IMG/VR virus record: IMGVR_UViG_3300030117_007605
Coordinates: 2,677 to 66,676 of that record
Length of the DNA: 64,000 nt
Source: a virus
Direction: 5' to 3' (one strand)
Below are positions 1,133 to 46,045 of this stretch, one piece after another; position 1 is the first letter of the stretch; the number at the start of each line of letters is the position of its first letter. Under the pieces are notes generated by a model. It was given only the letters and a program-made list of their open reading frames with translations, was not told the origin of the DNA and made no database searches. The translations under genes were made by a program, and so were the position numbers.

Positions 1133-2059
1133 ATGAAACTTATAATAGAGAACTGGCGTGATTACCTTACTGAAAGCAAAGCTGAGACATTACATCTTAT
1201 TGCGCAACCTTATGAACTTACTAAAGATTATTTGACATTTGATGAGTTGCTTACTGACCTTAAGGGCGAATTCAAAATTGAAGCGGGTAGGGGTGTATTT
1301 GACTTACCTGAAGTTAAAGAAAGATTGCTGAGTAACCTTAAGTCTCGCATAAATTTCGGTCGGTTATTGCCTTTCTTTATGGGTCAACCTTATCCAAAAG
1401 AAGTTGAATTAAAAGACCGTCCTAAAACGAAAGGTGTTATTATTGGCGTCCCAGTTTTTCTCAAAAATCCGATGCCTGAAGGTGTGCCTTCCAAAACTGC
1501 AAGGTTTGCTCAGAGCAGGGGCAAAAAAGGTCATGGTGCTTTAGATATTGTTGGCAAAGAAGGTCTTCCAGTTTATGCTGCTGGTGCAGGGAAAGTTGTT
1601 AGTGTTACCCACACCTCAACTTGGATGAAAAGCGCCAAGCGTATTGCAAAATACTGGTTAGGACAGGAAGGCGAATTTGCTGATTGGTTCCGAAGCAAAG
1701 TTAATCTTAAAAACATAACCCTTGATGTTGATGGGTGGGAATATCTTCGCGGTATTTTACTTAGAGGCGGTGATCCCAAAAACAATATATTCCGCAATGC
1801 GCCTGGAAATGCCAATTATAAAGCAGGCGCTTATTTGAATATTCAACATAATAAGTTCTTTGGTGGAACCATTATAACAAAGTATATGCACCTTAATGAA
1901 ATTGTTGTTTCAAAAGGCGCTTTTGTTCAAACCGGGCAGATCATTGGCAAAAGCGGAAATACATCGGTTGTAACTTCCCGTGATCACTTGCATTATGCTG
2001 TATTTGATGAGGGTAAAAGGGTTGATCCTGAATTGTATACTGTTGGCTTAAAGCGATAG
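1133..2059 (+). CDS. M23-type peptidase with predicted capsid-targeting leader
   Basis: This 308-residue protein carries the zinc ligands of the M23 (lysostaphin/LytM) endopeptidase family: H134-x3-D138 in KGHGALDIVG and the H285-L-H287 pair, with H253 in KYMHL also in place. M23 enzymes cut peptide cross-links in peptidoglycan. Residues 1-14, MKLIIENWRDYLTE, match the leader seen on several neighbours and end in L-T-E, the kind of site used by T4-type prohead proteases. I infer packaging in the head and delivery to the host envelope, though a tail-associated lysin is also possible. An insertion of about 80 residues (160-240) splits the catalytic domain. AGGGG at 1120-1125 supports the start. 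Confidence 0.85.
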   Translation: MKLIIENWRDYLTESKAETLHLIAQPYELTKDYLTFDELLTDLKGEFKIEAGRGVFDLPEVKERLLSNLKSRINFGRLLPFFMGQPYPKEVELKDRPKTKGVIIGVPVFLKNPMPEGVPSKTARFAQSRGKKGHGALDIVGKEGLPVYAAGAGKVVSVTHTSTWMKSAKRIAKYWLGQEGEFADWFRSKVNLKNITLDVDGWEYLRGILLRGGDPKNNIFRNAPGNANYKAGAYLNIQHNKFFGGTIITKYMHLNEIVVSKGAFVQTGQIIGKSGNTSVVTSRDHLHYAVFDEGKRVDPELYTVGLKR

Positions 2060-2534: not shown

Positions 2535-3056
2535 ATGAAAGAGTTATTAAAGGAATGGAAACAGTTTATTAACGAGGGTGAGCGCGGTGATCGAATTCGC
2601 TCAATTGCAGATAAAGTTGCGCGAGCATCTGATGCAGAGCTTACTAAGATGGCTGGTGATCAACTTGTAAGCTGCAAAGATCGTTCAAATTACCTTGACA
2701 ACCCAAACAGTGGTTACCAAAAAATGGTTAATGAATATGTTAGAGCCATGATGTCGGGTGACAGCGCACTGGCTTCCGGTAAGTTGAGAATGATTGGGGA
2801 GTTTGTTAAGGAACTTTACTGTAATCCTCAGCCGGAAGTTGATGCAAAAGGCATTGCTGATGAGTTTCTTGGTTTATTAATGGGGACTGTTGCTGGTATC
2901 AAAAGCGCAGAAAGAGGTTCCTGTGTTGCGCCAACTATTCAAGGCATTGTACCTGATAAAGTTAGTGCCGCTGTAAAGATTGTAATTGAGGAAAGTATAG
3001 ATATGATTATGGCAGTTGGCAAAGGGGCTTACAAGTGCCCCATAAAGAAAAAATAA
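2535..3056 (+). CDS. leader-tagged hypothetical protein, predicted head cargo
   Basis: The 173-residue protein begins MKELLKEWKQFINE, which aligns without gaps to the leaders at 1133 and 11109 (W at 8, basic residue at 9, aromatic at 11, Glu at 14) and ends in an I-N-E cleavage-type site. The rest is largely helical and contains three well-spaced cysteines (SCKDRS, LYCNPQ, GSCVAP). No family is recognised. A Shine-Dalgarno AGGAG sits seven bases before the ATG, and a strong terminator follows, so it is probably a one-gene unit. Confidence 0.7.
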   Translation: MKELLKEWKQFINEGERGDRIRSIADKVARASDAELTKMAGDQLVSCKDRSNYLDNPNSGYQKMVNEYVRAMMSGDSALASGKLRMIGEFVKELYCNPQPEVDAKGIADEFLGLLMGTVAGIKSAERGSCVAPTIQGIVPDKVSAAVKIVIEESIDMIMAVGKGAYKCPIKKK

Positions 3057-3073: not shown

Positions 3074-3108
3074 TACCCCCGTAGCAAAAACTGCGGGGGT
3101 ATTTTTTT
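3074..3108 (+). terminator. intrinsic terminator after 2535-3056
   Basis: TACCCCCG and CGGGGGTA form the core of a stem of about 11 pairs (one G-T pair) around a CAAAAA loop, followed at once by a run of seven T. This is a textbook rho-independent terminator. Confidence 0.92.
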
Positions 3109-3122
3109 GAGATTTTGTTTTA

Positions 3123-3135
3123 CTACTTATTATAT
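3123..3135 (+). promoter_or_regulatory. CTAnTTAT motif abutting a start codon, copy 3
   Basis: CTACTTATTATAT is identical to the copy before 1133, but its last two bases are the AT of the next gene's ATG (3134). No Shine-Dalgarno sequence is present, so a transcript started from this motif would be leaderless. Confidence 0.45.
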
Positions 3136-3928
3136 GCGAATTACCATAGACAAATTAAAACAAATCATAAATGAGGAAGTCAAAAACCTGAGCAAACAGC
3201 CACCTGCTGATGCTTCAAGAAAAGCTGCTGTCTCAGAAAGACAAGAACGTGGATTATTAGCTGCTATTAATGAGTATGCATCAATTGATAATCCGATCTC
3301 TGTTCAAGCCGGTCCAACAACAATTGAAAATGTGCAATCATCTTATAAAGTTGAAGGCTGCAATAAATTTGGGTGTGAAATGTATACAGATGTCGTCTTT
3401 GTTACAAATGGTGGTGAGATCAAAGTTTCATGTAAGGGAACCTCAGCCCCCTCTATTGCTGGCGGTGGACTTCTTGGTGCTAAGGCTCTGATCCCAGATA
3501 TCATTCCAAACTTCTTAGAAGCTGCTGAAAAATGGTATTTGGATAATGGTTATAAAGAAGGGGATTTAATTCCTGATTTATATGGTAAATTAAACGATTC
3601 CGATAAAAAGCTCGCTGTCGTTGGTACATTAGAAATTGGTGGACCAATTGATTATATGTATGTTGGACCAATGGATGTTGAACACACATTTGAAGATAAC
3701 CTATTAAAATTGAATGGTGATTTAATTGAAGCTTATGAATATGCTGATAACCACGATATTTATTTCAGGATTCGCAAGCGTCGTAATGACCAGCCTTTTG
3801 CCCCTGGTGAAAAAGACCGTCACGGTTATCCAATTATTTTAGGGCGTTCTCCAAGCAAGGGCGACACTGGACGAAGAGTTGTTTTTGTGAATAAAGTCCC
3901 AAAAACCAGAGATATTGTTGAATTTTAA
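3134..3928 (+). CDS. leader-tagged hypothetical protein (264 aa), predicted head cargo
   Basis: I place the start at ATG 3134 rather than at the upstream TTG (3107), because 3107 lies inside the terminator's T-run and because the product then begins MRITIDKLKQIINE, ending in an I-N-E site like the other leaders. It lacks the Trp of the main form and is a variant class. Residues after about 40 contain beta-rich segments with a close Cys pair (EGCNKFGCEMY) and an ISCKG-like Cys later. No family is recognised. The start codon has no Shine-Dalgarno sequence; the CTAnTTAT motif directly abuts it. Confidence 0.7.
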   Translation: MRITIDKLKQIINEEVKNLSKQPPADASRKAAVSERQERGLLAAINEYASIDNPISVQAGPTTIENVQSSYKVEGCNKFGCEMYTDVVFVTNGGEIKVSCKGTSAPSIAGGGLLGAKALIPDIIPNFLEAAEKWYLDNGYKEGDLIPDLYGKLNDSDKKLAVVGTLEIGGPIDYMYVGPMDVEHTFEDNLLKLNGDLIEAYEYADNHDIYFRIRKRRNDQPFAPGEKDRHGYPIILGRSPSKGDTGRRVVFVNKVPKTRDIVEF

Positions 3929-4582: not shown

Positions 4583-5245
4583 ATGAAAGAAATCCTAACA
4601 GAATGGCGAAATTATTTGGTAAAAGAAGAGAAAGATGACCCTTTAAAAGAGTTGGCACTTTTTTTATCTGATGAGCTTAAAGAAAGTGGAATCGCTGCGA
4701 GTCCCTCAGTATTGCTGAAAGTTTTGAAGCTAATAGACCCAACAATTCTTAATAAAATTGAAATATTAATTTATAAACAAATACAAAGTTTAAAGTACAT
4801 TTTTAAAACCAAGCCCGTTCTTATTTTGTTAAAAAAAGCTGGATTTGCTAGAAAATTAGCTCAAGGCAGTTATAATGCCGCAGCAGGAACTTTATCAACT
4901 ATATTTTCATTGGTTTTTATTATTTTTGAAGCCGCTCAAATGTTCGGACCTGTTTTTTATCAACAGTTTATCGATCCCAGTGCTCGTTTTAATATCTCAT
5001 TAAAAAGATTAAGAGAGGCAGAAAGAGATTTAAAAGTTTTAGGTCCTGATAGGTTTAAGAAAAAGTATGCAGGTGACGAAATGGCTAAACTTGCTGCTGA
5101 TTTTATGACTGCTGGATTTCAAGTTGAAAGAATTAGAGAGTTAAGACCTGAACTTTATAAGTTAGTTTCAGAAGAGGCTGGTGGTTTTGACAGTTTAATG
5201 GCTAGTCTTCGTAGATTGATTTTTGCATCTGAAAGTTTAGATTAA
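4583..5245 (+). CDS. leader-tagged membrane-active hypothetical protein, predicted head cargo
   Basis: The 220-residue protein opens with MKEILTEWRNYLVKE, one residue longer than the neighbouring leaders but with the same Trp-Arg and Tyr-Leu pattern and a V-K-E cleavage-type end. A helical region follows, then one clear hydrophobic segment (about residues 108-128, with SLVFIIFEAAQMFGPVF), then a charged helical tail. If delivered with the DNA it could insert in the host membrane. No family is recognised. Confidence 0.65.
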   Translation: MKEILTEWRNYLVKEEKDDPLKELALFLSDELKESGIAASPSVLLKVLKLIDPTILNKIEILIYKQIQSLKYIFKTKPVLILLKKAGFARKLAQGSYNAAAGTLSTIFSLVFIIFEAAQMFGPVFYQQFIDPSARFNISLKRLREAERDLKVLGPDRFKKKYAGDEMAKLAADFMTAGFQVERIRELRPELYKLVSEEAGGFDSLMASLRRLIFASESLD

Positions 5246-10659: not shown

Positions 10660-11112
10660 ATGAAATTAAGAGTAGTCATCAAAGAGGCAGTTGCACCAGA
10701 GGAAATAAGTGCTAGAAAACAGACTGCGATTCAAAATATAAACAATGAGTTGCGTGGCATAGACTTAGACACACTTGATTTACAGCAGTTGCAGGCTATT
10801 CTATCCTCAATTCAAGTTGCTAAAGGTGATCAGCCAGCAGAAAACCTTGCTTCCCTTGAAGAAAAAAAGAAAAAAGACGCAGTTTCAAAAAAAATCAGTA
10901 CATTAAGAGACGAAGGCAAACCACAAAACCAAGCAGTTGCTATTGCTCTTGATATGGAAAGGCGTGGTAAACTGAAAGAAGAAGAGGGTGATTGGTTTGA
11001 CCGTCTAATCAAATGGCTAACTGGAACAAAGGCAGGCAATACAGTTTTGGATACAGCGAATAGACGTCGCGGTGAAAATCAAGTTTCTTCGGCATATAAA
11101 GGAAAAAAATGA
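10660..11112 (+). CDS. small phage protein with QAVAIAL motif
   Basis: The 150-residue protein begins MKLRVVIKEAVAPEE, in which V-I-K-E could be another prohead-protease site, although the Trp of the typical leader is missing. Residues about 73-105 read KISTLRDEGKPQNQAVAIAL followed by DMERRGKL, a short helix pair found in many phage proteins and sometimes annotated in the DUF6496 group. A charged tail follows. Function is unknown. GAGG eight bases before the ATG supports the start, and its stop overlaps the kinase-like gene (ATGA), so the two should be made together. Confidence 0.65.
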   Translation: MKLRVVIKEAVAPEEISARKQTAIQNINNELRGIDLDTLDLQQLQAILSSIQVAKGDQPAENLASLEEKKKKDAVSKKISTLRDEGKPQNQAVAIALDMERRGKLKEEEGDWFDRLIKWLTGTKAGNTVLDTANRRRGENQVSSAYKGKK

Positions 11113-12053
11113 AATTATTACTTGAAAATTGGCGCAAATTTGTCAATGAGCAGGTCGATGCGACTGTTCCAGCCAAACCAGGCGCTAAAAAAGCCTTTCA
11201 CGATGCTGAAACAACTAAATTGGGTCAGAAAAAAGAAGATGCCCCACAAAAATTAGAGCCTATTGAACTTAATACGGCGATCCAAAAAGAAAATGCAAAG
11301 CAAATTTTTCTATATTACTTGGATGAAAAGAATGTCAGAGATATTTTTCAACTAGGATCTCTACCAAAAGATGGGCAGTTTAATAAAATGTTTGAAGAAC
11401 CTGCTAAGGTTAAGAGATTTATTGATCACATGGTTGCAGCAAATGACATTTTAGGTAAAAATAAGATTATAAAGTTTTTAGGAGCAGGTTCATTTGGCTT
11501 TGTAGTGTTGTTGGACAACAATCACGCTCTTAAAATTTACAGTGGATCGTTTGATCCGCTTGGAACTGACGATGTGATTGATCCAGATGCTAAAACTGAT
11601 AGAGAAAGATACCAAAAATCTCAAGAAAAAGCATTTGGTGGTAAAGGTGATATTGCAGACTTGCACATTTATGATGAAGGTGAGCTAAAATTACCTACTG
11701 ATCGCACTTGGTATTACGCTGAAATGCCTGAATTAATAAAACTTAGCTCACATATGCGCTTCGTACATAAAGACAAGGATATGGCGAAGGTTACAACCGA
11801 CTTAGACACGGAAATTGCTAAACTAAAATACATAGCAAAGGATGATGTTAACAATAAAACTGAAAGTAACATCGATGATGTTATAAAAGACCACGATATA
11901 ATCATTATGGACAAGGTATTTGCAGCAAATCTTTTAAATCAGCTAAGAAACATGTTAAAAACAAAGTCTTTTGAGCAAATTGAAGACGTTAGAGGGGCTA
12001 ATATTGGAATTATGCGAGGCAAAGAGCAAATTCCAGTGATTTTTGATTACTAA
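11109..12053 (+). CDS. leader-tagged protein kinase-like protein, predicted head cargo
   Basis: The 314-residue protein starts MKLLLENWRKFVNE, the clearest example of the leader, ending in V-N-E. After a charged linker comes a protein-kinase-type core: glycine loop GAGSFG (125-130), ATP-binding Lys142 in HALKIY, a hinge-like YYAEMPEL (202-209), a catalytic loop D293-V-R-G-A-N298 with the canonical Asp-to-Asn spacing, and the metal-binding Asp313 in VIFDY. The chain ends one residue later, so the activation loop and lower C-lobe are absent. I infer a compact kinase or pseudo-kinase delivered to the host. AAGGA precedes the ATG; the next gene overlaps by one base. Confidence 0.8.
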   Translation: MKLLLENWRKFVNEQVDATVPAKPGAKKAFHDAETTKLGQKKEDAPQKLEPIELNTAIQKENAKQIFLYYLDEKNVRDIFQLGSLPKDGQFNKMFEEPAKVKRFIDHMVAANDILGKNKIIKFLGAGSFGFVVLLDNNHALKIYSGSFDPLGTDDVIDPDAKTDRERYQKSQEKAFGGKGDIADLHIYDEGELKLPTDRTWYYAEMPELIKLSSHMRFVHKDKDMAKVTTDLDTEIAKLKYIAKDDVNNKTESNIDDVIKDHDIIIMDKVFAANLLNQLRNMLKTKSFEQIEDVRGANIGIMRGKEQIPVIFDY

Positions 12054-12286
12054 TGAAGAAAATATTAGCATTTTTAACAATTTTAATGATTTCGGTGCCA
12101 GTTTTTGGAAAATCTAGGGCAAAATTCTATGATTTTAGCGATCAACTCATTGATGGCACGATAAAAAAGCCTTCCACGATTTATATGGAGTCTAGGACTC
12201 GTGCAAAGTTTGCAAAATTGCTTAAATTAAAGAAATCTTTCATTCCAAGACTGCTTATGACTGGTAGAGAGTCACTTTTAAAGTAA
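12053..12286 (+). CDS. small exported protein
   Basis: The ATG shares a base with the stop of the kinase-like gene (TAATG). The 77-residue product has a typical signal peptide (about 1-19, ending SVPVFG) and a short basic mature part, YDFSDQLIDGTIKKPSTIYM followed by RTRAKFAKLLKLKKSF. Such short periplasmic proteins are reminiscent of envelope proteins of deltaproteobacteria, but I cannot name a family. Coupling to the kinase-like gene may be accidental. Confidence 0.6.
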   Translation: MKKILAFLTILMISVPVFGKSRAKFYDFSDQLIDGTIKKPSTIYMESRTRAKFAKLLKLKKSFIPRLLMTGRESLLK

Positions 12287-12840: not shown

Positions 12841-13542
12841 ATGAAGAAAATTATTTTTATTCTAATTTTTCTATCCTTAACTAGTAGTTCAACCACCACA
12901 ATGTTGGAAAACCCTGTCTTTTTTCGTGGGACATTTTTAAAAATAGAAAAAAGTATAAAAATAAGAGTATGTAGCCCAAAAAATCACAATTTTTGTATAA
13001 TAAAAGAGTTCGATTCGACGGCATCGTCGTTTTTAGTAAAACATAGGAACGATAAATCTTATATTATGACATCTGCTCATGTGTGTGTGACAGATTTTGG
13101 TAAATTAAAATATTTGCCGGGATTTAAAGTATCTGAAGAATTCTATGGATTGACAGACGATATGAAAAGGCATGCTTATCATATAGAAACTGTAGATCAA
13201 TCAGCCGATCTATGCCTTGTTTCGACCAAAAGGTTCAAGGGGATGCCATTTAGAATAGCAAAGAACAATCCAAACAGAGGCGAAAAGATTTTTAATATCG
13301 CTGTACCTTTAGGGTTCTTTGAAGAAAAATTAATACCATTATTTGAAGGTTATTATATAGGACACATCCATGATCGAACTGTAGTGACGTTGCCTGCAAC
13401 TGGGGGTTCTTCTGGTTCGCCAGTTTTAAATCAGAGCGGAGCCGTACTTGGAGTAGTGAGTTCTGTGATGAAAAATTTTCACCATGTTGTTGTGTTGTCA
13501 ACTTTAGAACAAATAAAAAATATGATTAAAACTATAAAATAA
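12841..13542 (+). CDS. secreted trypsin-like serine protease
   Basis: The 233-residue protein has a signal peptide (about 1-18) and the catalytic triad of the chymotrypsin/HtrA fold: H80 in MTSAHVC, D123 in SADLCLV and S191 in GGSSGSPVLN. There is no PDZ domain. It should act in the periplasm or outside the cell. Paired Cys (44/52 and 82/125) fit disulphides. In a phage it may process surface proteins or defend the infected cell; the target is unknown. The nearby pacifastin-like lipoprotein (6448-7065) belongs to a family that inhibits enzymes of this fold. Confidence 0.85.
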   Translation: MKKIIFILIFLSLTSSSTTTMLENPVFFRGTFLKIEKSIKIRVCSPKNHNFCIIKEFDSTASSFLVKHRNDKSYIMTSAHVCVTDFGKLKYLPGFKVSEEFYGLTDDMKRHAYHIETVDQSADLCLVSTKRFKGMPFRIAKNNPNRGEKIFNIAVPLGFFEEKLIPLFEGYYIGHIHDRTVVTLPATGGSSGSPVLNQSGAVLGVVSSVMKNFHHVVVLSTLEQIKNMIKTIK

Positions 13543-13569: not shown

Positions 13570-14010
13570 ATGAACTCTGTGAAAGAAATCAAACATATAG
13601 ATGATAATCCGAATCAATCTTCAATGGCTGTCTTAATTGACCCTAAAGATAGAGTTTTAATATTAAGAAGACCAGATAATTTGAACCCTGAAAATTACCC
13701 TGGCATGTGGTGTATCCCTGGAGGGAAATCCCTTGTTGGTGAGAAGCCATTGAACAATGTAATTCGTGAAGTTTTGGAAGAAACTGGTATTGAACTTAAA
13801 CCGCATTCCACAAACTATTTATTAAATAAACAAGAAGGGGACAAAAACTATTTCTTTTTTATGTCTCGTGTGGATCAAGAGCCCAAAATAATGAATGTGC
13901 TAGATGAACACGAAGAATTTAAATGGATTAGAGCCGATGAGATTGGAAAATATAATATGATAAAAGATACCCATAGCATCATCAAACAAGCCCTGCGGAA
14001 AGGATTATAA
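13570..14010 (+). CDS. Nudix hydrolase
   Basis: The 146-residue protein has a perfect Nudix box: G52-x5-E58-x7-R66-E67-V-L-E70-E71-T-G73-I74. The general ADP-ribose/nucleotide-type fold is clear, with WCIPGGK before the box. Nudix enzymes split nucleoside diphosphates linked to another group using Mg; the substrate cannot be told. Its stop overlaps the ATG of the next gene, a nucleotidyltransferase polyprotein, so the two are coupled and may act on related nucleotides. Confidence 0.9.
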   Translation: MNSVKEIKHIDDNPNQSSMAVLIDPKDRVLILRRPDNLNPENYPGMWCIPGGKSLVGEKPLNNVIREVLEETGIELKPHSTNYLLNKQEGDKNYFFFMSRVDQEPKIMNVLDEHEEFKWIRADEIGKYNMIKDTHSIIKQALRKGL

Positions 14011-17000
14011 TGAAACTAACCATCGCAAAAGACGAACTACAATTTGGTCACAAAGAAACCCTCAATAAAGATTTCTGGCAGGATGAGAAGCTCAATCCTG
14101 AAGTTCGTGCTGCGATAATTGCGATAATTAAGAACTTTTTGGATTCAACCAGTTTAGATCTTTCTGTTGATGATTTTGATGAAATTGAGTTTACTGGAAG
14201 TTTGGCGAATTATAATTATGGCAAATTTAGTGATATTGATATCCACTTGTTATTAGACTTTTCTAAAATTAGTGATGATCCTGAGTTTCTAAAAGAATAC
14301 CTAACAACTAAAGCAATTATGTGGAATAACCAGCACAATGTTACTCTTTTTGGGCATGAAGCGGAATTATATATCACAGATGCAGGTTCAGACCACCATT
14401 CGACTGGTGTCTATAGCGTTAAAAATAATGAATGGGTTGTTAAACCAGTTCGTGATACTAAATTATCCGCAGAATTAAATCTTAATAAAGTTAAAGATAA
14501 GGCTGATAAGATCTCTAAGGAGATCGATATGCTCGCTACAATAGAGGGGGACGCACCTCTAGACAAAATTAAAAATTTAAAAAACAAAATTAAAAAAATG
14601 CGTCAGGCAGGCTTAGAAAGTGGTGGAGAGTTCTCAATTGAAAACTTGGCTTTTAAGCTGCTCAGAAGACGTGGAGAGCTAAGCCTTTTAAGAACCCTCA
14701 TGGCACAAGCCGCAGACGCAGAACTCTCGTTAGATGAAGACGTAGAGTGGTGGAAGAGGAATCGTGAAGACGACAACAGAAAATATCGTGAACTTATGGG
14801 GCATGTTAAGGGTAAGGGAGTTTTCAAAAGAAAATACGCTGCTAAGAACATTGGATACCCAAAGTCGAGTAATCGAGTTAAAATAAGTAAATCAGGAAGC
14901 CCTTATACAGTAGACCCACCGAGCAAGCTTCCAATGAGTGGACCGCCCGGTGTTGGGGCTCTTGAAGAAGAGACTGAATTAAATGAAGCAACAGTACCAC
15001 CTAAATTTATTAAAGCATTCAAAGAGATCTCAAAAGCTACAATGAAATTTCAAGTGTTGAAGGTTGTTGAAGGTTCTCTTGGTCCATTCAAAGGGACGGC
15101 TTTTAAACCTGGGAAAAACTACGATGGATTCATCGTAGGGGATAATATTACTTTCCCAAACACAGAAGCGATGACTGGAGCTAAACAAGTAAGAACAAAA
15201 GATGAATTTCTAGAAGATCTTAAAGATACTCCCGGCGAGTTCTGTCAAATTATTAAATGTGATACATCAACAATCACAGCGGGTGGAAAGAGTCTGACCT
15301 TTAATGAGTTCATAGCTGGGCTTGATTCTGTTAAGCCTGCTGCACCTATTCAGCCAAAGAAGAAGCCTCCAGTAGCCACTGCAAGGGATAAAGGGGTCAA
15401 ACAAGTTTTAGGTTCTGGTCCAGTTCCAGATAATGTCATCGGTAGAATATTAGAAAATGTCATATTATCTAGAGAGGCTGGTGATGTAGTTAAAATTTAT
15501 TTTAGAGACATTTACGAAAATATTGCGGGAAAGAAAGATCCATGCCTTAAGAAACACTCTTATACTGCTAAATTAGATGCTGCTAATAATGTATATGACG
15601 TGGCTTTTGATGGCAAAAGCTGGGATGAAATAACTCACCCTGAAAATAAGTTTGCTGATCCCGCCGGATGTCGCTTTTTTAACAATTATAATAATAAGCT
15701 TAAAGTTTTGCCAATGTATAATTGGTTGCTTGGTCAGCTAAAACAGGGCACAATATACAAAATTGAGCTTCTTTCAAAGGCTAGAGATAATGTGACATAT
15801 GTTGGTAATGAATATGTACCACCTGTTAAGCCATATGTGCCTCAAAAAGATTTTGTTGGTCCATTTTTCAGAAAAATTAATCAGATTAAAGATAAGACAA
15901 ATATGCTTATCTCTCTACACCCTAAAGAGACCTTATTTGCGGTTACTGATCTGGGTAGAATTGTTTCGGATCGAACTATAAATTACGTTTATTACACACC
16001 CAGAGAAAAACCATATATGGCTCTTCTTAAAAAAGATAATACGACGGCTCTTGATAGAGAAGTCCCAGGGAAAGAAAGGCTTTTAAAATTTTTGAAAAAG
16101 CAAGCTGGTAGTTTAGATATTGGTCCAATTCAAGGTGCCGCACTAGGCAGGCTAATTCCTGCGATTGTTAATAAAGTCGCGGGTGGCAAAAGAATCAGAA
16201 GCTTTAAGCGTGATGAATATCTTAAAGACCTCCAAGCAGCCACAAATGGAAAATTTTGCGAATCATTTGATTGCAAAAAATCAAAAATAAAATTTAAGAA
16301 AGGGCAAGCGGCGATTTCAATAGAAAATTGGCTCAGCGGAACTAAGGGTAAAACAGAAGCTGAGATTTACGCTATGTTTATTAAAAAGCTTAACAAAGAT
16401 TATCCGAAAAAATCTTATGAAAAAGATCAGATAAGGTTATCAATAGATGACAAAACAACCGGACTGGTGACTCTTGAAGGTGGTATCATTGCTAGAGATG
16501 GTTTGGTCCGTGCAATTAGGGCTGCAAATAGAATTGAGAAAGCAGCTTTAAAAATAGAGTCTGGGGCTGAGCAACCGACTGAAACAAGGAGATCCTGGGC
16601 AACATTATTACAAAGTAAGTATGGAAATAAATGTTATGAACTAAATGTAGATCCAGCAGATGAAAAAGCTCACATCGGCGCTGGGAACGTAATGAAAAAA
16701 GAATATTTGAACAATTTAAAGAAGGCTGCTAGTCTTGAAGGTGTAAGGGTCCCAAAAATCAGTCAGGATTTTACTGTGAGAATTATATGTGATGGTGATC
16801 GCAATGAAACAAAACAAATAACATTCAAACCATCACAATTAAATGGTGATATTTTCAATACTGGTTATGCCATAAAAGTTAATGACAAATCAAATAACTG
16901 GCTTGAAAAAAATGGTGGTCGAATCGGCTTTGCAAAAGTGCCAAATGTGAAAAACGGTTGGTTTATGCAAGACGAAATTGAAAAACGTTGGAAAGGTTTT

Positions 17001-17594
17001 GGAGCAGCAGAAGGTGCTAGCACTGAAATTAAGCCCGGTGTTATAACGGGCGAACAAGATTTACTCTCAGAGCCAGACATAGATAAATATTTTTTCTTCA
17101 GTCAAACCAGAGATGTGAATAAGAAAACATTCAATGACCAAACTACACCTCAATTAAGAGATCAATTAGTCATACTTGCCAAACTTGCCCAAGCTGAATT
17201 TGGAAAAGACGCTAAAATAGAGATAACGGAAGCATACAAAAAACCTAAGTCTGAGACTCATGTTGCCGGATCTCTACATTATCAGAAAAAAGCAGTAGAT
17301 TTTGTCATTAAAGGTCAAACATGGGAAACTACCGCAGCTTTTACTTTAGCTCAAATGGCTAATGGTAAATTATCACCGGGTGGTTTTGGTCTTTATTTTA
17401 AAAAAGGCGAAAAAGAGTTGTCAGACAAACCACACTATGATGTGCGTGGTAGGGATTCTACTTGGAAGTGGGTTGATGGAAAAAAACAAAAACAGTTTTC
17501 CAAATATTCTAGAAGATCTAAAAAAGAAATTGTAAACAAGAACTTGTTTAAACTCCCTGATGCCTTCTTGAATAAAGTAAAAGGGTACATGTGA
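14010..17594 (+). CDS. 1194-aa multidomain protein: Pol-beta-type nucleotidyltransferase, duplicated Cys domain, M15-like peptidase
   Basis: Residues 55-125 carry a Pol-beta superfamily nucleotidyltransferase signature: G63-S64 then D75-I-D77 in GKFSDIDIHLLLDF, with E119 or D124 as candidate third acid. A charged helical stretch follows, ending with ETELNEA (324-326 L-N-E), a possible prohead-protease site. Two related units occupy about 394-440 and 732-780; each has a KDEFLEDL/RDEYLKDL helix followed by FC-x4-C. The last 110 residues look like an M15-type D-Ala-D-Ala peptidase: SLHYQKKAVDF (H1090, D1097) and PHYDVRG (H1142). I infer a virion protein whose parts may be separated by proteolysis; a peptidoglycan-cutting end suits entry. 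Confidence 0.75.
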   Translation: MKLTIAKDELQFGHKETLNKDFWQDEKLNPEVRAAIIAIIKNFLDSTSLDLSVDDFDEIEFTGSLANYNYGKFSDIDIHLLLDFSKISDDPEFLKEYLTTKAIMWNNQHNVTLFGHEAELYITDAGSDHHSTGVYSVKNNEWVVKPVRDTKLSAELNLNKVKDKADKISKEIDMLATIEGDAPLDKIKNLKNKIKKMRQAGLESGGEFSIENLAFKLLRRRGELSLLRTLMAQAADAELSLDEDVEWWKRNREDDNRKYRELMGHVKGKGVFKRKYAAKNIGYPKSSNRVKISKSGSPYTVDPPSKLPMSGPPGVGALEEETELNEATVPPKFIKAFKEISKATMKFQVLKVVEGSLGPFKGTAFKPGKNYDGFIVGDNITFPNTEAMTGAKQVRTKDEFLEDLKDTPGEFCQIIKCDTSTITAGGKSLTFNEFIAGLDSVKPAAPIQPKKKPPVATARDKGVKQVLGSGPVPDNVIGRILENVILSREAGDVVKIYFRDIYENIAGKKDPCLKKHSYTAKLDAANNVYDVAFDGKSWDEITHPENKFADPAGCRFFNNYNNKLKVLPMYNWLLGQLKQGTIYKIELLSKARDNVTYVGNEYVPPVKPYVPQKDFVGPFFRKINQIKDKTNMLISLHPKETLFAVTDLGRIVSDRTINYVYYTPREKPYMALLKKDNTTALDREVPGKERLLKFLKKQAGSLDIGPIQGAALGRLIPAIVNKVAGGKRIRSFKRDEYLKDLQAATNGKFCESFDCKKSKIKFKKGQAAISIENWLSGTKGKTEAEIYAMFIKKLNKDYPKKSYEKDQIRLSIDDKTTGLVTLEGGIIARDGLVRAIRAANRIEKAALKIESGAEQPTETRRSWATLLQSKYGNKCYELNVDPADEKAHIGAGNVMKKEYLNNLKKAASLEGVRVPKISQDFTVRIICDGDRNETKQITFKPSQLNGDIFNTGYAIKVNDKSNNWLEKNGGRIGFAKVPNVKNGWFMQDEIEKRWKGFGAAEGASTEIKPGVITGEQDLLSEPDIDKYFFFSQTRDVNKKTFNDQTTPQLRDQLVILAKLAQAEFGKDAKIEITEAYKKPKSETHVAGSLHYQKKAVDFVIKGQTWETTAAFTLAQMANGKLSPGGFGLYFKKGEKELSDKPHYDVRGRDSTWKWVDGKKQKQFSKYSRRSKKEIVNKNLFKLPDAFLNKVKGYM

Positions 17595-32128: not shown

Positions 32129-33400
32129 ATGGAAGAAAAAAGAATAAAGATTCTCACTTTGGGGGATATGCCCTTAGCCACGTCTGGCGTCGGCAACCAA
32201 ACCAAATATATAATTGAAGCATTGCTGGCGACTGGGAAGTTTGAAGTCTTCAGTCTTGGTGGTGCAATGAAACACCCTCGGTATCAGATGCTAAAAACAG
32301 AAAAGTGGGGAGATCTTTGGACAATCTTGCCAGTGGACCAGTTTGGCACAAAAGACATGGTGCGTTCAATTATTTCGCGAGAAAAGCCAGACATTCTTTG
32401 GTTTATGACCGATCCTCGTTTTTGGGGATGGTTGTGGGAAATGGACAACGAAATCCGTCAGAATATCCCAATGGTTTATTATCATGTATGGGACAACTAT
32501 CCATATCCAAAATTCAATAAGAAATACTATGAAAGTAATGATGTGATTGTTTCAATCTCAAAACTGACAGATGATATTGTTAAAACAGTTGCACCAGATG
32601 TCGAATCACATTATATTCCTCATGCTGTGGACACAAACATATTTAAAAAGTTGGATGATGAAATTGTGGATAACCTACGAGCAGAAAACAAGGGTCCATA
32701 TGGTCAAGCCCTCACTGATCGTTTTGTAGTACTTTTTAATAGTAGGAACGCTCGCCGCAAACACAGCGGCACTTTAATATTTTGGTTTAAGGAGTTCCTT
32801 GAAAGAGTGGGGGAGGATAAAGCTGTCCTTCTGATGCACACAGAGCCAACAGATCCCAATGGTCCCGATCTACTACAAATTGTAGAAGACCTTGAACTGG
32901 ATACGGGACAGGTCCTTTTTTCAAGAGACAAATTAGATGAAAAAAAGGTTGCAACACTTTACAATATCGCTGATGTGACAGTGAATATTTCTGATGCAGA
33001 GGGGTTTGGATTATCATGCTTAGAATCACTTGCTTGTGAAACTCCAGTGGTTGGAGTCCGTACAGGTGGTTTGCAAGACCAATTAACCGATGGGAAGGAG
33101 GTCTTTGGTGTTATGATTGAACCCTCATCGTCTGAAGTTGTTGGTTCTCAATTGGTTCCTTATGTACATGAAGACAGAATTGCGAAAGAAGACTTTATCA
33201 ATGGTCTATATGATATGTATTTTGCTGCCAAATCCGGCAGAGCCAAAATTGGCAAGAAGGCAAGAAAACATGTTATGAAGAATTTTAATTTTAAAGACTT
33301 TAACGAATCTTGGATTAACTTGATGCTTGAAATCCATGAGAAATACGGCTCTTGGGAAAATAGGAAGCTTTATCAAAACTGGAGAAATGAATCATTATGA
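32129..33400 (+). CDS. GT4-type glycosyltransferase
   Basis: The 423-residue protein has the GT-B fold of family 4: N-terminal LGDMPLATSGVGNQTKYI, YIPHAVDTNIFKKL before the donor domain, and the E-x7-E motif in DAEGFGLSCLESLACETPVV. Donor and acceptor are not readable from sequence. It opens the large glycan operon and overlaps the next glycosyltransferase by four bases. Confidence 0.88.
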   Translation: MEEKRIKILTLGDMPLATSGVGNQTKYIIEALLATGKFEVFSLGGAMKHPRYQMLKTEKWGDLWTILPVDQFGTKDMVRSIISREKPDILWFMTDPRFWGWLWEMDNEIRQNIPMVYYHVWDNYPYPKFNKKYYESNDVIVSISKLTDDIVKTVAPDVESHYIPHAVDTNIFKKLDDEIVDNLRAENKGPYGQALTDRFVVLFNSRNARRKHSGTLIFWFKEFLERVGEDKAVLLMHTEPTDPNGPDLLQIVEDLELDTGQVLFSRDKLDEKKVATLYNIADVTVNISDAEGFGLSCLESLACETPVVGVRTGGLQDQLTDGKEVFGVMIEPSSSEVVGSQLVPYVHEDRIAKEDFINGLYDMYFAAKSGRAKIGKKARKHVMKNFNFKDFNESWINLMLEIHEKYGSWENRKLYQNWRNESL

Positions 33401-34680
33401 AAAAGAAAGTATTATTAGTAGGTCCAATTTTAACTCAATCTGGATATGGAGAACATGCCAGGATGGTTTATCGAGCTTTAAAGAGTCGTGAAGACATATT
33501 TGATATTTATGTTAATCCGGTAAACTGGGGTGCGACAAGCTGGATTACAGAAAGAACACCTGAACGCGAAGAAATCAATGTTTTAATTCAAAAGACTTTT
33601 CAACACCTTCAGGAAAAGCTACCATTTGATACAACCATAATGGTTACAATTCCATCAGAATGGAAACAATATCGTGCAGCCCCTGAAAATATCGGTGTTT
33701 GTGCGGGAATTGAAACTGATAGAGTTTCACCACACTGGCTGGAAGCAGCTAATCTTTTTGTCGATAAGGTCATTGTCCCCGCAGAATTTTCGAAAGAAGG
33801 CTTTGTAAACGCTGCTTGGGATGTGAAAGATCAAGCGGGGAATGATTTGAAGTTAACTCTTGCTAAACCAATTGAAGTTGTAAATTACCCAGTCGAAAAA
33901 GAGTTTTGTAATCCTTCAGATTGTTTACATGAGAAGCTAAAATTTGAACACGACTTTAATTTTCTTTGTGTTGCACAATGGGGCATTAGAAAAAACATCG
34001 ATGGGACGCTTAAATACTTTTTAGATGAATTCAAAGATGAAGAAGTAGGGCTTGTTTTGAAGTTATCTATAAAAGATAGTTCAACAATAGACTTTTATCA
34101 AACTAAGAAGAGAATCAATAATATATTAAAGGCATATCCTGATAGAAAGTGCTCTGTTCGACTCTTACATGGATATTTTTCAAAAGAAGAGTTAAGTTCT
34201 CTTTATACTCACCCTCAAATTAAAGCGATGGTTAATTTTGGGCATGGTGAAGGCTATGGATTGCCTCTTTTTGAAGCGGCATCTGTTGGTTTACCAGTGC
34301 TTACTCATGATTGGGGCGGTCAGAAAGACTTTCTATATGCTCCCAAAAAAGATAAGAAGGGTAGAGAAAAGATGAGACCGCATTTTTCTAAGGTTTCTTA
34401 TGACTTAAAACCAATACAGAAAGAAGCAGTTTGGGACAGCGTGCTACAACCAGAAAGCCAATGGGCATATCCTCACTGGGGATCTTGTCAAATTAGCATG
34501 AGACAATGTTTTGAAAACTACGGATTATATTCAGGGCAAGCGAAGAAACTAAAAACTTGGGTTCTTAAAAATTTCCATGAGGATAAAATTAATAAAGAAA
34601 TGGTTGACTTATTACACGACGAGGAAGCATTCGAAGTAGAAAATTGGTTGACGTCACTTGGCGATATTGATGAAGGATAA
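33397..34680 (+). CDS. GT4-type glycosyltransferase
   Basis: This 427-residue protein begins MKKKVLLVGPILTQSGYGEH and has the donor-site E-x7-E in GHGEGYGLPLFEAASVGLPV, so it is a retaining GT-B enzyme related to its upstream neighbour. ATGA overlap links the two genes. The pair could add consecutive sugars. Confidence 0.87.
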   Translation: MKKKVLLVGPILTQSGYGEHARMVYRALKSREDIFDIYVNPVNWGATSWITERTPEREEINVLIQKTFQHLQEKLPFDTTIMVTIPSEWKQYRAAPENIGVCAGIETDRVSPHWLEAANLFVDKVIVPAEFSKEGFVNAAWDVKDQAGNDLKLTLAKPIEVVNYPVEKEFCNPSDCLHEKLKFEHDFNFLCVAQWGIRKNIDGTLKYFLDEFKDEEVGLVLKLSIKDSSTIDFYQTKKRINNILKAYPDRKCSVRLLHGYFSKEELSSLYTHPQIKAMVNFGHGEGYGLPLFEAASVGLPVLTHDWGGQKDFLYAPKKDKKGREKMRPHFSKVSYDLKPIQKEAVWDSVLQPESQWAYPHWGSCQISMRQCFENYGLYSGQAKKLKTWVLKNFHEDKINKEMVDLLHDEEAFEVENWLTSLGDIDEG

Positions 34681-35536
34681 GACGGCAAAGATTGTTTTAA
34701 TCTCTGATTACTTTTTGAAAGACCTTCCCTACGGTGGCGGTGCCGAGTATAACGATGAGATTGTTAACAACTTGTTGTCGGACAGAGGCTATTCGGTCAT
34801 TAGAAAAAAGTCCCATCAGGCAGACGTCAAATTTTTAACAAGTTTGCCTGATGGAACAAAATTGATAGTATCAAATTTTATAAATCTATCTGAAGAAAGC
34901 AAACAATATATTGCAAAAAATCTTGATTATATAATTTATGAGCACGATCATAAATATTTAAGACTTAGGATACCATCTCTATTTTATAATTTCAAAGCAC
35001 CAGATCACGAGATAGTAAATTATAATTTTTATAAGTCTGCAAAAACTGTTCTTGCACAAACTAGTTTTCACAAAAAAATTATAGATCTGAACATTAATAC
35101 CGAGAATGTCATTAGTTTGTCGGGCAATTTATGGACTGATGAAGATTTTGAGCAATTCAAGGAGAACCTTTCGATGGCAAAGACAGAACAATGTTCTGTT
35201 TTAAATTCCCCGCTTATCAATAAAGGGACTGCCAAGGCAGTTAAACACTGTGAAGAAAATAATATTGATTATGAATTGATCGCTGACAAAAATTATTATA
35301 AATTCTTAAAAAAGATCGCTTCGAACCAAAAATTAATATTTTTGCCAACAATCCCTGAGACGTTAAGCAGAATTTGTGTTGAAGCTAAGATGATGGGATG
35401 CTCAGTTATAACGAACGGCATGGTTGGTGCGAAATATGAAGACTGGTATAAACTTAGGGGAGAAGAGTTGATCGAGCACATGAAGAAGACCCGAGATGAA
35501 ATAGTTGAATTGATTTTGGAGCAATTAAGTGGATAG
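34670..35536 (+). CDS. GT-B-like glycosyltransferase, short form
   Basis: I use ATG 34670, which overlaps the previous stop, rather than TTG 34658. The 288-residue product has SDYFLKDLPYGGGAEYNDEI at the start and FLPTIPETLSRICVEAKMMG near the end, the donor-site helix of GT4-like folds with P-E-T replacing the usual E-G-F. It is about 100 residues shorter than its neighbours and may be a reduced or accessory enzyme. Confidence 0.7.
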   Translation: MKDKTAKIVLISDYFLKDLPYGGGAEYNDEIVNNLLSDRGYSVIRKKSHQADVKFLTSLPDGTKLIVSNFINLSEESKQYIAKNLDYIIYEHDHKYLRLRIPSLFYNFKAPDHEIVNYNFYKSAKTVLAQTSFHKKIIDLNINTENVISLSGNLWTDEDFEQFKENLSMAKTEQCSVLNSPLINKGTAKAVKHCEENNIDYELIADKNYYKFLKKIASNQKLIFLPTIPETLSRICVEAKMMGCSVITNGMVGAKYEDWYKLRGEELIEHMKKTRDEIVELILEQLSG

Positions 35537-36263
35537 TCTTAAGTTTACAATAATAATTCCGTGTTTTAACAGTGAAAACTGGATTAAAGAAAGTCTATTA
35601 TCTGCCTTAAACCAGACTTACAAGAATTTAGAAGTTATCTTTGTTGATAACGAGAGCACGGATACATCCGTTGAGATCACAAAAGAAATTAAAGGACAAT
35701 ATCCAAATTTAATAACGGCTTCAGCAAAAAACATATATAAACATTCGTATCAAGAACCTGTTGAAAAGGGATTAGAAATTGCTACTGGTGATTATTTCAC
35801 AATATTAGGATCAGATGACTACTTGCATGAGGACTATGTAAAAAATATTGTTGACATTCTGTCAAAAACTGATAAAATCGCTGTTATGCAAAGCCCCTTG
35901 CACTGTGTAAAGGAAAGCGATGCTCAGGTGGTGAATAAAATAAAACATAAATATAGAAATATCGGAGAATTTAAGCGGTTACTGCTTGAAGGGTGTCCGG
36001 TCACCACGCCCACATTGGTTATCAAGAAAGAATTATATGACAATGGGGCTATAACTTGGAGGTCTGATAAGTTTTTAGGGGCTTCAGATTATGATCTTTA
36101 TTTTTCGTTAGCAGATCAGGGCATCTTCATTTACCCTTTGCCCAAATGGCTGGGATATTATTATCGCTGGAATCCAGAACAATCTACATGGGGGATGCAT
36201 CGCGAAGAAACAAACTATGATAAACTTATAAAGGATGAATGGACAGAAAAATGGCAGAATTAA
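35529..36263 (+). CDS. GT2-type glycosyltransferase
   Basis: Starting at GTG 35529 within the previous gene, the 244-residue product shows the GT-A family 2 pattern: FTIIIPCFNSENWIKESLLS, the nucleotide-binding VDNESTDTS, and the DxD-like GSDDYLHEDYV. It uses a nucleotide-sugar donor and inverts. A YYYRWNPEQSTW stretch near the end is likely at the acceptor site. Confidence 0.88.
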   Translation: MDSLKFTIIIPCFNSENWIKESLLSALNQTYKNLEVIFVDNESTDTSVEITKEIKGQYPNLITASAKNIYKHSYQEPVEKGLEIATGDYFTILGSDDYLHEDYVKNIVDILSKTDKIAVMQSPLHCVKESDAQVVNKIKHKYRNIGEFKRLLLEGCPVTTPTLVIKKELYDNGAITWRSDKFLGASDYDLYFSLADQGIFIYPLPKWLGYYYRWNPEQSTWGMHREETNYDKLIKDEWTEKWQN

Positions 36264-36889
36264 AAGAACGAATACTCGATATTTGCTTTAAACACAAACT
36301 ATCGCACATGGGATCCTACTTCTCCAGTGTAGGAATTATCGATGATATTTATTCAAAAATGACGGACGATGATATCTTTATCTTGTCACCAGGGCATTGC
36401 GCGGTCGCATTGTATGCCGTTCTAGAAAAATATAAAGGTGTTGATGCTGATAAACTTTTTGAAAAGCATGGAGGGCACCCTCACCGTGATGAACAAAACC
36501 ATATTTTTTGTTCGACGGGTAGTCTTGGAATGGGATTACTTGTTGCGATAGGTAGGGCAATGGCGAACCCTAAAAGAAAAGTATATTGTCTGATAAGTGA
36601 CGGTGAGTGCGCCGAGGGGTCTATCTGGGAAGGGCTCAAATTCATCTATGAGAATAATATTCAAAATATAGAGGTATATGCTAATATAAATGGATATGCA
36701 GCATATGATTCTGTAGATGTGGATTACCTTTGCAGGCGTTTGAAAACATTTTTACCTAAAATAAACTTAGTTTTTACCAAAGTAAACCATTTTGATTTTT
36801 TGAATGGGCTCAATGCCCATTACCACATTATGAGCAAAGAAGATTACGATCTTGCAAAAAAGGAGTTGAGGCTTGAGAAAAGAGTTTAG
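36239..36889 (+). CDS. transketolase N-terminal (TPP-binding) subunit
   Basis: The 216-residue protein matches the pyrophosphate domain of transketolases: LSPGHCAVALYAVL, CSTGSLGMGLLVAIGRAMA and the TPP/Mg motif SDGECAEGSIWEG with a later Asn in YANINGY. It is about 60 residues shorter than common split-type N subunits. It acts with the next gene's product to move two-carbon units between sugars. Position inside a nucleotide-sugar operon suggests a role in building an unusual sugar. ATG 36251 is an alternative start. Confidence 0.87.
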   Translation: MDRKMAELKERILDICFKHKLSHMGSYFSSVGIIDDIYSKMTDDDIFILSPGHCAVALYAVLEKYKGVDADKLFEKHGGHPHRDEQNHIFCSTGSLGMGLLVAIGRAMANPKRKVYCLISDGECAEGSIWEGLKFIYENNIQNIEVYANINGYAAYDSVDVDYLCRRLKTFLPKINLVFTKVNHFDFLNGLNAHYHIMSKEDYDLAKKELRLEKRV

Positions 36890-37349
36890 TAAATTTTTAT
36901 ATAAAGAAATGGGTAAAAATGAGAATATAGTTCTTTTAACTGGAGATCTTGGATATGGACTCTGGGATAAAATCAGAATGGATTATCCCGATAGGTTCTG
37001 GAATGTGGGCTCGTCAGAACAACTCCTGATCTGTGCTGCTACAGGTTTAGCAATGGAAGGCAAAATTCCGTTTGTTTATTCTATAACTCCTTTTTTACTT
37101 TATCGACCATTTGAAGCAATTAGAAATTACGTTGATCATGAAAAGATCCCAATCAAATTAATCGGAGGTGGTAGAGACCGCGATTATGGGTATTTAGGAT
37201 TTTCACACTGGGCAGAGGAAGACAAAAAGGTGATGAGTTGTTTTGATAATATTATTATGTCACATCCAGCTTCCGCAGAAGAAGCAAAAAAAGTTTTGGT
37301 AGAAAGCATTCATAACAATAAACCTTATTATATAAACTTAAAAAGATGA
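36873..37349 (+). CDS. transketolase pyrimidine-binding subunit, minimal
   Basis: The TTG start at 36873 has AAGGAG upstream and lies inside the partner gene. Residues include LLTGDLGYGLWD, FWNVGSSEQLLICAATGLAM (catalytic Glu in SSEQ) and YRPFEAIRNYVDHE, which define the pyrimidine domain. At 158 residues it lacks the third, C-terminal transketolase domain altogether. The pair is therefore a minimal two-domain transketolase. Confidence 0.87.
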   Translation: MRKEFSKFLYKEMGKNENIVLLTGDLGYGLWDKIRMDYPDRFWNVGSSEQLLICAATGLAMEGKIPFVYSITPFLLYRPFEAIRNYVDHEKIPIKLIGGGRDRDYGYLGFSHWAEEDKKVMSCFDNIIMSHPASAEEAKKVLVESIHNNKPYYINLKR

Positions 37350-38173
37350 AAAAGATATTAGTAATCGCTAAAAACAGCTTTTTAGCAAAACAAATAAATG
37401 ATTTTTTTGCCAACAGTGAATATTCTTTATATTTCACAACAAGAAAGGATTTTGATGCCACATCGCCTTCGCAGGTGAGAAGTTATTTTATAAACAAATA
37501 TTATGATGTGGTGATTAATTGTGCAATCAACGGAGGGATCCGAGGAAGAAAAGACACATTAACTGACTTTATTAATAACATCGCAATGTTTAATAATCTT
37601 TTAGACAATAAAAGTCATTATGGGAAGTTAATAAACTTTGGCTCCGGTGCAGAGTTTGACAGAAGACATGGAATTGATGAGTGCAAAGAAGACGAAGTGT
37701 TCACAAAGACCCCTGTTGATTACTATGGAATGTCAAAGAACATAATAACTAAAGAGATCTACAGCCAAAACGAAGTTTTCAACATTAGAATCTTTGGTTG
37801 TTTTGGACCTCATGAAAAGCAATCTAGATTTTTAAAATCAAATATTAATAATGTGTTGGCAAACAAAGATATTATAATTCACCAAAACAAATATATGGAT
37901 TTTATTTCTGCTGACGATCTGTGTAGGATAATAAAATACTATATTGATAACGATGCAAAATTACTTCCAAAAGATATTAATGCTGTCTATGATACCAAAT
38001 ACACCTTAAAACAATTTGCAGAAATGTTAAAATTATATATGAACAGCGAAAGTTCCATTGTGGTGAACAAAGAAGGTTTGTCAAATTCATATACTGGTTG
38101 TGGCAAGAGATTAAAACAAATGGGGATTCCCCTCAATGGACTTGAATTAGAAATAAAAAATATTTTAAAATAG
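37346..38173 (+). CDS. NAD-dependent epimerase/dehydratase-like protein
   Basis: The 275-residue protein has the extended SDR layout: VVINCAINGG, FGSGAEFDRR, the Y-x3-K pair in DYYGMSKNIITKEIY and YMDFISADDL. The N-terminal Gly-rich loop is degenerate (VIAKNSFLAKQ), so cofactor binding may be altered. GDP-fucose-synthase-like and other NDP-sugar reductases/epimerases fit best. It overlaps the transketolase subunit by ATGA. Confidence 0.78.
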   Translation: MKKILVIAKNSFLAKQINDFFANSEYSLYFTTRKDFDATSPSQVRSYFINKYYDVVINCAINGGIRGRKDTLTDFINNIAMFNNLLDNKSHYGKLINFGSGAEFDRRHGIDECKEDEVFTKTPVDYYGMSKNIITKEIYSQNEVFNIRIFGCFGPHEKQSRFLKSNINNVLANKDIIIHQNKYMDFISADDLCRIIKYYIDNDAKLLPKDINAVYDTKYTLKQFAEMLKLYMNSESSIVVNKEGLSNSYTGCGKRLKQMGIPLNGLELEIKNILK

Positions 38174-38182
38174 TGGGTGATA

Positions 38183-39523
38183 ATGCTTTTGGAAAAGAAA
38201 GAACAAATATTAAAGCTTGTAAAAGAATACATTTCAGAAAAAAACGAGCAAAAAACTTGGACCGAGGGGGAAGATTGGGTAACTTATTCTGGTCCTCATT
38301 TAGATGAAAAAGAATTTGTCGATGCTGTAGATGTGTTGATTGATGGTTGGATGATTTTTGGAAAAAACAACCGTGAATTCGAAAAACGTTTTCCTAAACA
38401 TTTGGGCAGAAGATTTGGTGTTTTAACAAACTCTGGTAGTTCCGCAAACCTATTGGCTATGTCATGCCTTAAATCAAAGAGCACATTTAATTTAAAGCCA
38501 GGAGCTAAATTTATCACCCCGGTTGTTTGTTTCCCAACAACCATCAACCCAATAATTCAAAATGGGTTTAAACCAGTTTTTGTTGATGTAACGTTGCCAA
38601 ATCTTAATTTAAATCTAGATCATGTTGAGAAAAAGTTGCAAGAAGACCCTGAAATTAAGGGCATTGTTTTTGCTCACGTCTTGGGCAACCCTCCCGACAT
38701 GGATAGGTTAATGGGGTTGGTAGAAAAGTACAATTTAATTTTCATTGAAGACGCTTGTGATGCTCTAGGTTCTACCTACGACGGAAAAAAACTTGGATCT
38801 TATGGGCACATTTCAACTTGTTCTTTTTTTCCGGCACACCATATGACGACTGGAGAGGGGGGCTTTGTTGCCACCAATGATTACAAAATTAGAAAGTCAC
38901 TATCAAGCTTTAGAGACTGGGGTCGAGCTTGCTATTGCAACGATGCCAAACCGGGTAACGTAACCGCAGGCACAGCATGTGGCAACAGATTTAAATCGTG
39001 GTTACCAAAACTACCAGAAGCAATTTATGATCATAGATATGTCTTTGACGAAATTGGCTACAATATTAAGCCTCTCGATTTACAGGGAGCGATTGGGCTA
39101 CAACAATTGAAAAAATTGCCTGAAATGGACGCCGCACGGAGAAAAAATTTCGATCGTTTGATTAAGATTTTTTCAAAATATGAAAAATACTTTTGGTTAC
39201 CCAAAGCAACAGAGAAAGCTGATCCTTGTTGGTTCGGTTTCTTATTAACGGTTAAAGATTCCGCTCCATTTTCAAAACAAAGATTTGTTCAACACATGGA
39301 AGACAACAAAATTCAAACCAGAAGCTATTTTACAGGAAACGCCTTGGCTCACCCAGCATATGAGGATTTTGCGAATGAATATAAAAACATAAGAACGGCA
39401 TTCCCAGTCGCAACCTATGTAACAAGCAACACTTTGTTTTTAGGAACTTTTATAGGAATCACAGATGAGAAGATGGATTATATTGAAAAGGTAGTAGATT
39501 CTTTTTTTGCGGAGGCAGAATGA
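38183..39523 (+). CDS. rfbH: iron-sulphur PLP-dependent NDP-4-keto-6-deoxyhexose 3-dehydrase (RfbH/AscC type)
   Basis: I use ATG 38183; a GTG lies two codons upstream. The 446-residue protein is a DegT/StrS-fold PLP enzyme in which the usual Lys is His: FFPAHHMTTGEGG, H219. That replacement marks the 3-dehydrase E1, which removes the 3-hydroxyl of CDP-4-keto-6-deoxyglucose. C192-x57-C250-x-C252 matches the E1 iron-sulphur ligands; the fourth Cys is C266, giving x13 instead of the usual x7. E1 needs a reductase (E3), not seen in this window. The product would be a 3-deoxy sugar. Confidence 0.85.
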   Translation: MLLEKKEQILKLVKEYISEKNEQKTWTEGEDWVTYSGPHLDEKEFVDAVDVLIDGWMIFGKNNREFEKRFPKHLGRRFGVLTNSGSSANLLAMSCLKSKSTFNLKPGAKFITPVVCFPTTINPIIQNGFKPVFVDVTLPNLNLNLDHVEKKLQEDPEIKGIVFAHVLGNPPDMDRLMGLVEKYNLIFIEDACDALGSTYDGKKLGSYGHISTCSFFPAHHMTTGEGGFVATNDYKIRKSLSSFRDWGRACYCNDAKPGNVTAGTACGNRFKSWLPKLPEAIYDHRYVFDEIGYNIKPLDLQGAIGLQQLKKLPEMDAARRKNFDRLIKIFSKYEKYFWLPKATEKADPCWFGFLLTVKDSAPFSKQRFVQHMEDNKIQTRSYFTGNALAHPAYEDFANEYKNIRTAFPVATYVTSNTLFLGTFIGITDEKMDYIEKVVDSFFAEAE

Positions 39524-40479: not shown

Positions 40480-40483
40480 GTAC

Positions 40484-42799: not shown

Positions 42800-42800
42800 T

Positions 42801-46035: not shown

Positions 46036-46045
46036 TTGAAACACT

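Follow-up and report, generated by a model that had tools for sequence, protein, structure and literature searches.

Can a virus deliver a ready-made kinase into its host together with its DNA, and how little of the kinase fold would such an enzyme need? The question is raised by an open reading frame (ORF) at positions 11109..12053 (plus strand, 314 aa) of a 64,000-nucleotide stretch of viral DNA, hereafter the window, which corresponds to bases 2677-66676 of an 85,285-base IMG/VR virus record that is possibly a fragment. In an initial annotation, the product was described as a kinase-like protein with a capsid leader and without the lower C-lobe. Our preferred reading, held with moderate confidence, is that the ORF encodes a minimal protein-kinase-like enzyme that is packed into the head of a T4-like virus, injected with the DNA and directed at host proteins, which it phosphorylates. 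Coordinates are those of the window, and all features given for this ORF lie on the plus strand.

The gene and its family

ORF 11109-12053 is a real gene under purifying selection. Its ATG overlaps the stop codon of the preceding ORF, and its own stop codon overlaps the ATG of a downstream 77-aa ORF. The dN/dS ratio is approximately 0.1 (0.096 against a relative with 91% identity and 0.081 against a relative with 77% identity), and the neighbourhood and its synteny are preserved in three further records (G001-G003). The 77-aa ORF located directly 3' of the kinase gene (window 12053-12286) has a signal-peptide-like start; its counterparts in G001-G003 are 78-90% identical, and the one near the kinase in L103 is 49% identical. 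The product of window 12841-13542 resembles a secreted trypsin-like serine protease, with a signal-peptide-like start and the motifs SAHVC and GGSSGSPV; in G001-G003, L106 and L222, relatives of this protein are encoded near the kinase gene. Further downstream, a long run of genes at window 32129-49463 looks like sugar-nucleotide and glycosyltransferase enzymes, an extent unusual for a phage.

Single-protein searches with the ORF against Pfam, PHROGs, PDB sequences and isolated phages gave no match, and no relative was found in GTDB genomes searched with the family pattern. Two full-length relatives, one of them present in two records, were obtained by searching IMG/VR. Distant relatives were collected by a leader scan, followed by a profile search over all fetched ORFs and by further scans; when 50 records were searched broadly in six frames with a profile, most matches covered the leader only. 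The final alignment comprised 12 sequences (the window, L002, L003, L106, L222, L255, L165, L227, L103, L233, L224 and L225), and the eleven relatives share 20-91% identity with the window domain, most of them 20-46%. Residues K119, G127, N137, H139, G191, E205, D293, N298, G300 and D313 are invariant throughout the alignment, and G125, G130 and K142 are each retained in 11 of the 12 members. The gene and its family are thus supported by computation.

Each of the 12 proteins stops one residue past the D313 column, with the endings FDY, FDF, FDR, FDP, IDI or YDY. The truncation is therefore an inherited design and no artefact of a single contig, and a canonical kinase interrupted by a sequencing stop was ruled out on the same ground. 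Chance occurrence of the motifs was likewise ruled out: the ordered kinase motif set ending at the C-terminus, a pattern written after the family had been seen, was detected in 10 of 15,492 real ORFs, all of them family members, versus none of 20 composition-shuffled ORF sets.

Predicted fold and active site

An AlphaFold2 model of residues 56-314 built on the 12 sequences reached a pLDDT of 87.5 and a pTM of 0.78, and modelling on three close relatives only (pLDDT 41.5) gave no usable model. The predicted elements follow the order of kinases (beta1-3, alphaC, beta4-5, alphaD, alphaE, beta7-8). In the Foldseek search against the PDB, all 50 leading rows were kinases or the kinase-like aminoglycoside phosphotransferase APH(2''), with PknB as the best match (E 5e-5). 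The best VIA-align alignment was to Mps1 (Z 10.6, 144 residues, 3.5 A) and extends as far as Mps1 residue 665, which we take to be the Phe of the Mps1 DFG motif. Since the alignment ends at the DFG, Asp313 is predicted to occupy the position of the DFG Asp, and the activation segment and alpha-F to alpha-I are absent. Global TM-scores against the PDB were low (0.26-0.38), partly because half of the C-lobe is absent, and the rmsd was high over long alignments. The top fold matches among predicted viral proteins were uncharacterised proteins of uncultured (marine) phages and protein kinases of phages and giant viruses. A profile search against PDB sequences yielded weak matches (E 0.9-2.5), four of five being kinases. 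The ORF had no Pfam match to PF00069, the canonical eukaryotic-type kinase, at E up to 1, and a complete C-lobe is absent from it.

A linker (residues 15-56) and N-terminal helices (residues 57-117) precede the N-lobe at 11151..11459, and the helices were modelled with pLDDT mostly above 79 and one dip to 58. The predicted structure then contains the elements that mark the kinase-like superfamily: the N-lobe sheet with its glycine loop and alpha-C, the hinge, the catalytic loop and beta7-8. The glycine loop GAGSFG (residues 125-130, 11481..11498) lies between predicted beta-1 and beta-2. Lys142 in beta-3 (11532..11534) corresponds to the VAIK Lys, and Asp164 (11598..11600), a column that is D or E in all 12 sequences, is the acidic residue of predicted alpha-C; in a typical kinase this residue is Glu. 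The hinge Glu205-Met206 (11721..11726) follows predicted beta-5 (model residues 146-152), and a long helix (model residues 170-194) extends between the hinge and alpha-E. The loop D293-V-R-G-A-N298 (11985..12002), in a region spanned by the kinase fold alignment, has the D-x-x-x-x-N spacing of kinases and thereby supplies the equivalents of the catalytic Asp and Asn, with Arg where distant relatives show His. The DFG-equivalent Asp313 and the last residue, Tyr314, are encoded at 12045..12050.

The glycine loop, Lys142, D-x-R-x-A-N loop and penultimate Asp named in the initial annotation were all found in place. The kinase N-lobe and catalytic-loop arrangement, on which that annotation had staked its claim beforehand, was borne out by structure prediction and fold search, as was the missing lower C-lobe. 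The kinase design is confirmed by computation at the level of a predicted model, with fold, active-site conservation and truncation at the DFG Asp all supported.

Whether such a reduced domain would still transfer phosphate may be judged from the same residues. A head-packaged pseudokinase, which would bind nucleotide or a host protein and serve as a decoy or inhibitor without phosphotransfer, would fit the loss of the lower C-lobe, the activation loop, the HRD His and the DFG Gly, the Asp in alpha-C and the Ser that replaces Lys142 in the relative L225. However, the catalytic Asp, the Asn and the DFG Asp are invariant in all 12 members down to approximately 20% identity and the Lys is kept in 11, which argues against this explanation since a decoy would not need them. 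Moreover, active enzymes are known among the T7-like gp0.7 kinases (PMC12345140), in which the HRD His and the DFG Gly are likewise missing and little sequence follows the Asp. We therefore consider a pseudokinase unlikely for the family. L225:3001-3906 itself, with Ser for the beta-3 Lys and Lys for one glycine of the loop, is a possible pseudokinase and may be inactive, as perhaps may some other members.

A small-molecule kinase of the APH type, delivered with the DNA in place of a protein kinase, was also weighed. Distant members have a D-V-H-x-G-N loop similar to the one in aminoglycoside phosphotransferases, the Foldseek matches include APH(2'')-Ia, and the usual peptide-substrate platform is removed by the truncation. 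Against these points, the best fold matches are protein kinases, and the D-x-H-x-x-N loop is shared by T7-type protein kinases, whose PHROG 15752 is matched by L224 (E 3e-6, residues 63-263, both lobes). An APH-like enzyme is thus quite unlikely, and a protein-kinase-like enzyme is preferred.

The leader and head targeting

The first 14 residues of the ORF form a capsid-targeting-like leader (MKLLLENWRKFVNE, 11109..11150), after whose Glu14 a prohead protease would cut. The core W8-x-x-F11-V12-x-E14 has the same spacing as Y4-x-x-F7-I8-x-E10 of T4 IPII and IPIII, both of which start MKTYQEFIAE (read from AF158101); the T4 leader has 10 residues, and that of the window has four extra residues ahead of the core. 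In T4 IPIII, residues 4 and 7 are important in targeting, as are residues 8 and 10 in processing (PMC9026906). Among the 96 leaders whose sequence the scan pattern left free, 94 have L, I or V on the cleavage side, two positions ahead of the leader Glu.

The leader is modular. Residues 1-20 of the ORF recur ahead of unrelated proteins, and the domains that follow the leader are of the peptidase, HAD-like, NUDIX, ParB-like and kinase types. Among the IMG/VR matches listed, more than 120 stretches contain the core pattern of the leader. No leader was found among 50,697 records of isolated phages. Within the window, variant leaders begin three further plus-strand ORFs, namely, 1133..2059 (MKLIIENWRDYLTE), which has an M23 peptidase domain (Pfam E 1e-17), 2535..3056 (MKELLKEWKQFINE) and 4583..5245 (MKEILTEWRNYLVKE). 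The M23 protein is possibly a head-packaged cell-wall enzyme.

The T4-type gp21 protease and gp23 capsid protein are both present in all three kinase-family records longer than 140 kb (G059, G062 and G003, the last being the record of the 77% relative), and gp21 also occurs in other large leader-bearing records. In G014 and G010, gp21 has leader ORFs at a distance of at most two or three genes. The record of the window has no recognisable gp21 or gp23 in its 85,285 bases, so the link of the leader to these proteins rests on relatives.

The kinase could instead be expressed in the infected cell, with an N-terminal helix that serves as a tag for localisation or binding and has nothing to do with the head, and the position of most leader ORFs outside the head gene block would agree with such a role. 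However, T4's own internal-protein genes also lie outside that block, the spacing is identical to that of the T4 capsid-targeting sequence, including the residues shown to matter, and T4-type gp21 is found in large leader-bearing records. A tag unrelated to the head is quite unlikely on these grounds. The conservation and modularity of the leader, together with gp21 and gp23 in relatives, are supported by computation, and the capsid leader proposed in the initial annotation is upheld at the sequence level. The leader thus appears to be a T4-style head address tag, and the protein is probably stored in the particle and injected with the DNA.

Two further observations concern possible head proteins. 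A second type of N-terminal leader (MKITKSKLNRIIKEEL type) was found on L165:10813-11892, L227:2461-3606 and window 3107-3928, thereby replacing the first leader on two kinase relatives (the L165 and L227 ORFs). It occurs on approximately 64 ORFs, is also present in head gene blocks beside gp21, and is perhaps another head-targeting tag. In addition, window 14010-17594 encodes a 1194-aa protein whose first ~240 residues match PHROG 36119 (E 6e-45) and whose N-terminal part resembles a nucleotidyltransferase (GSLANYNYGKFSDIDIH). A similar domain carries the head leader in L020:9843-10808, so the 1194-aa protein may be another injected effector.

Kinase domains distinct from the window family follow the leader in L005, L006, L011, L024, L026 and others. 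The Pfam Pkinase model matches L005, L006 and L011, those tested, with E 3e-7 to 2e-5, just below the cut-off. Most of these Pfam-type leader kinases end at D-L-G-L-F plus a few residues, and L005 continues for approximately 50 residues; L201, L165:1040-2062 and L174 look like further leader-kinase types. In loci that had been retrieved with no criterion other than the leader pattern, kinase motifs were found in 8 of 200 leader ORFs versus 2 of 1037 other ORFs (p 1e-5), and both of the latter ORFs start with leader variants. When compared with the Pfam-type leader kinases, a three-sequence profile of the window family aligned at the glycine loop alone (P 0.012), and a larger family profile aligned over the N-lobe only (P 1e-4 to 4e-4). 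Common descent of the two groups is likely but not proven from these profiles; since the relationship runs through the N-lobe only, one or several origins are both compatible. L183:4165-5808, also leader-bearing, seems to join kinase-like and HAD-like phosphatase domains in one chain.

Comparison with known systems and proposed role

Reduced kinase domains that are delivered into a host cell are known among the bacterial minimal effector kinases OspG, NleH and SteC, which are secretion-system effectors acting on eukaryotic cells. For packaging, ORF 11109-12053 would be placed with the T4 internal proteins by its leader sequence. It shares with T4 IPI-III and Alt a short N-terminal leader of the form aromatic-x-x-aromatic-aliphatic-x-Glu, several leader proteins per genome, and T4-type head proteins in relatives. 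The T4 payloads are small basic proteins and an ADP-ribosyltransferase, whereas the payload in the window is a predicted kinase.

The T7 gp0.7 and JSS1_004 kinases resemble the ORF in the glycine loop, the Lys, a D-x-[HR]-x-x-N loop without the HRD His, a DFG-like Asp and little C-lobe beyond it. The corresponding segments of T7 gp0.7 read D195-M-H-S-G-N and I-T-D213-P; in the phage EFA-1 relative, approximately 30 residues follow the DFG-like Asp. In contrast to the window protein, T7 gp0.7 lacks a head leader, carries a fused shut-off domain and is the product of an early gene expressed in the cell. The window ORF gave no significant profile match to PHROG 15752, and profile-profile comparison of the family with this PHROG gave P 0.024. 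For JSS1_004, a kinase of the T7 type, phosphorylation and disabling of host defence proteins have been described (PMC12345140).

The initial annotation knew of nothing like a head-packaged kinase of this minimal form, and this claim did not hold. Kinase domains lacking the whole C-terminal subdomain were described by Iyer 2017 in virion-borne polyvalent proteins (PMC5512222), so the idea of an injected kinase without a C-lobe is not new, and T7 gp0.7 is likewise short after the Asp. The Kinase-PolyVal domain (PF18762) has lost the same subdomain, keeps its active site and is predicted to be virion-borne and injected. However, it forms part of a large multidomain protein, whereas the window ORF is a stand-alone protein with a T4-type leader. 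PF18762 did not match the ORF by hmmscan or six-frame search; the conserved Gln in the last N-lobe strand is absent, with E205 at the strand end, as are the HxD His and the His-Asp insert of the catalytic loop. Membership in Kinase-PolyVal was rejected on the missing match, Gln and insert. What is new is the separate family, the extreme truncation and the occurrence of a T4-style targeting leader on several kinase families.

For the preferred reading, a protein-kinase-like enzyme packed into the head, we infer a course of packaging, cleavage, injection, catalysis and substrates as follows. The N-terminal 14 residues would bind the prohead core as a capsid-targeting sequence, and a gp21-type protease would cut the leader after Glu14, thereby releasing a mature kinase-like protein that would enter the cell together with the DNA. 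The glycine loop and Lys142 would bind ATP together with Asn298 and Asp313, which would serve as metal ligands, and Asp293 would be the catalytic base. Host proteins would be phosphorylated at once, ahead of any phage gene expression. As with T7 gp0.7 and JSS1_004, the candidate targets are proteins of transcription, translation or defence.

A broader reading, which we regard as evenly balanced, is that uncultivated T4-like viruses deliver varied ready-made enzymes by means of a T4-type head tag, including several unlike families of kinases without a C-lobe, and that host phosphorylation starts at DNA entry, before transcription; the kinase of the window family ends unusually early, with a single residue beyond the DFG Asp. 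Should the leader prove a genuine packaging tag, it would provide a sequence rule for the proteins injected by a large group of uncultivated T4-like viruses, and kinases would be among these proteins. Activity in a kinase that ends at the DFG Asp and has no lower C-lobe would define the minimum fold needed for phosphotransfer. A packaged kinase would act before any phage gene is expressed, and a T7-type kinase is already known to disable host defence proteins.
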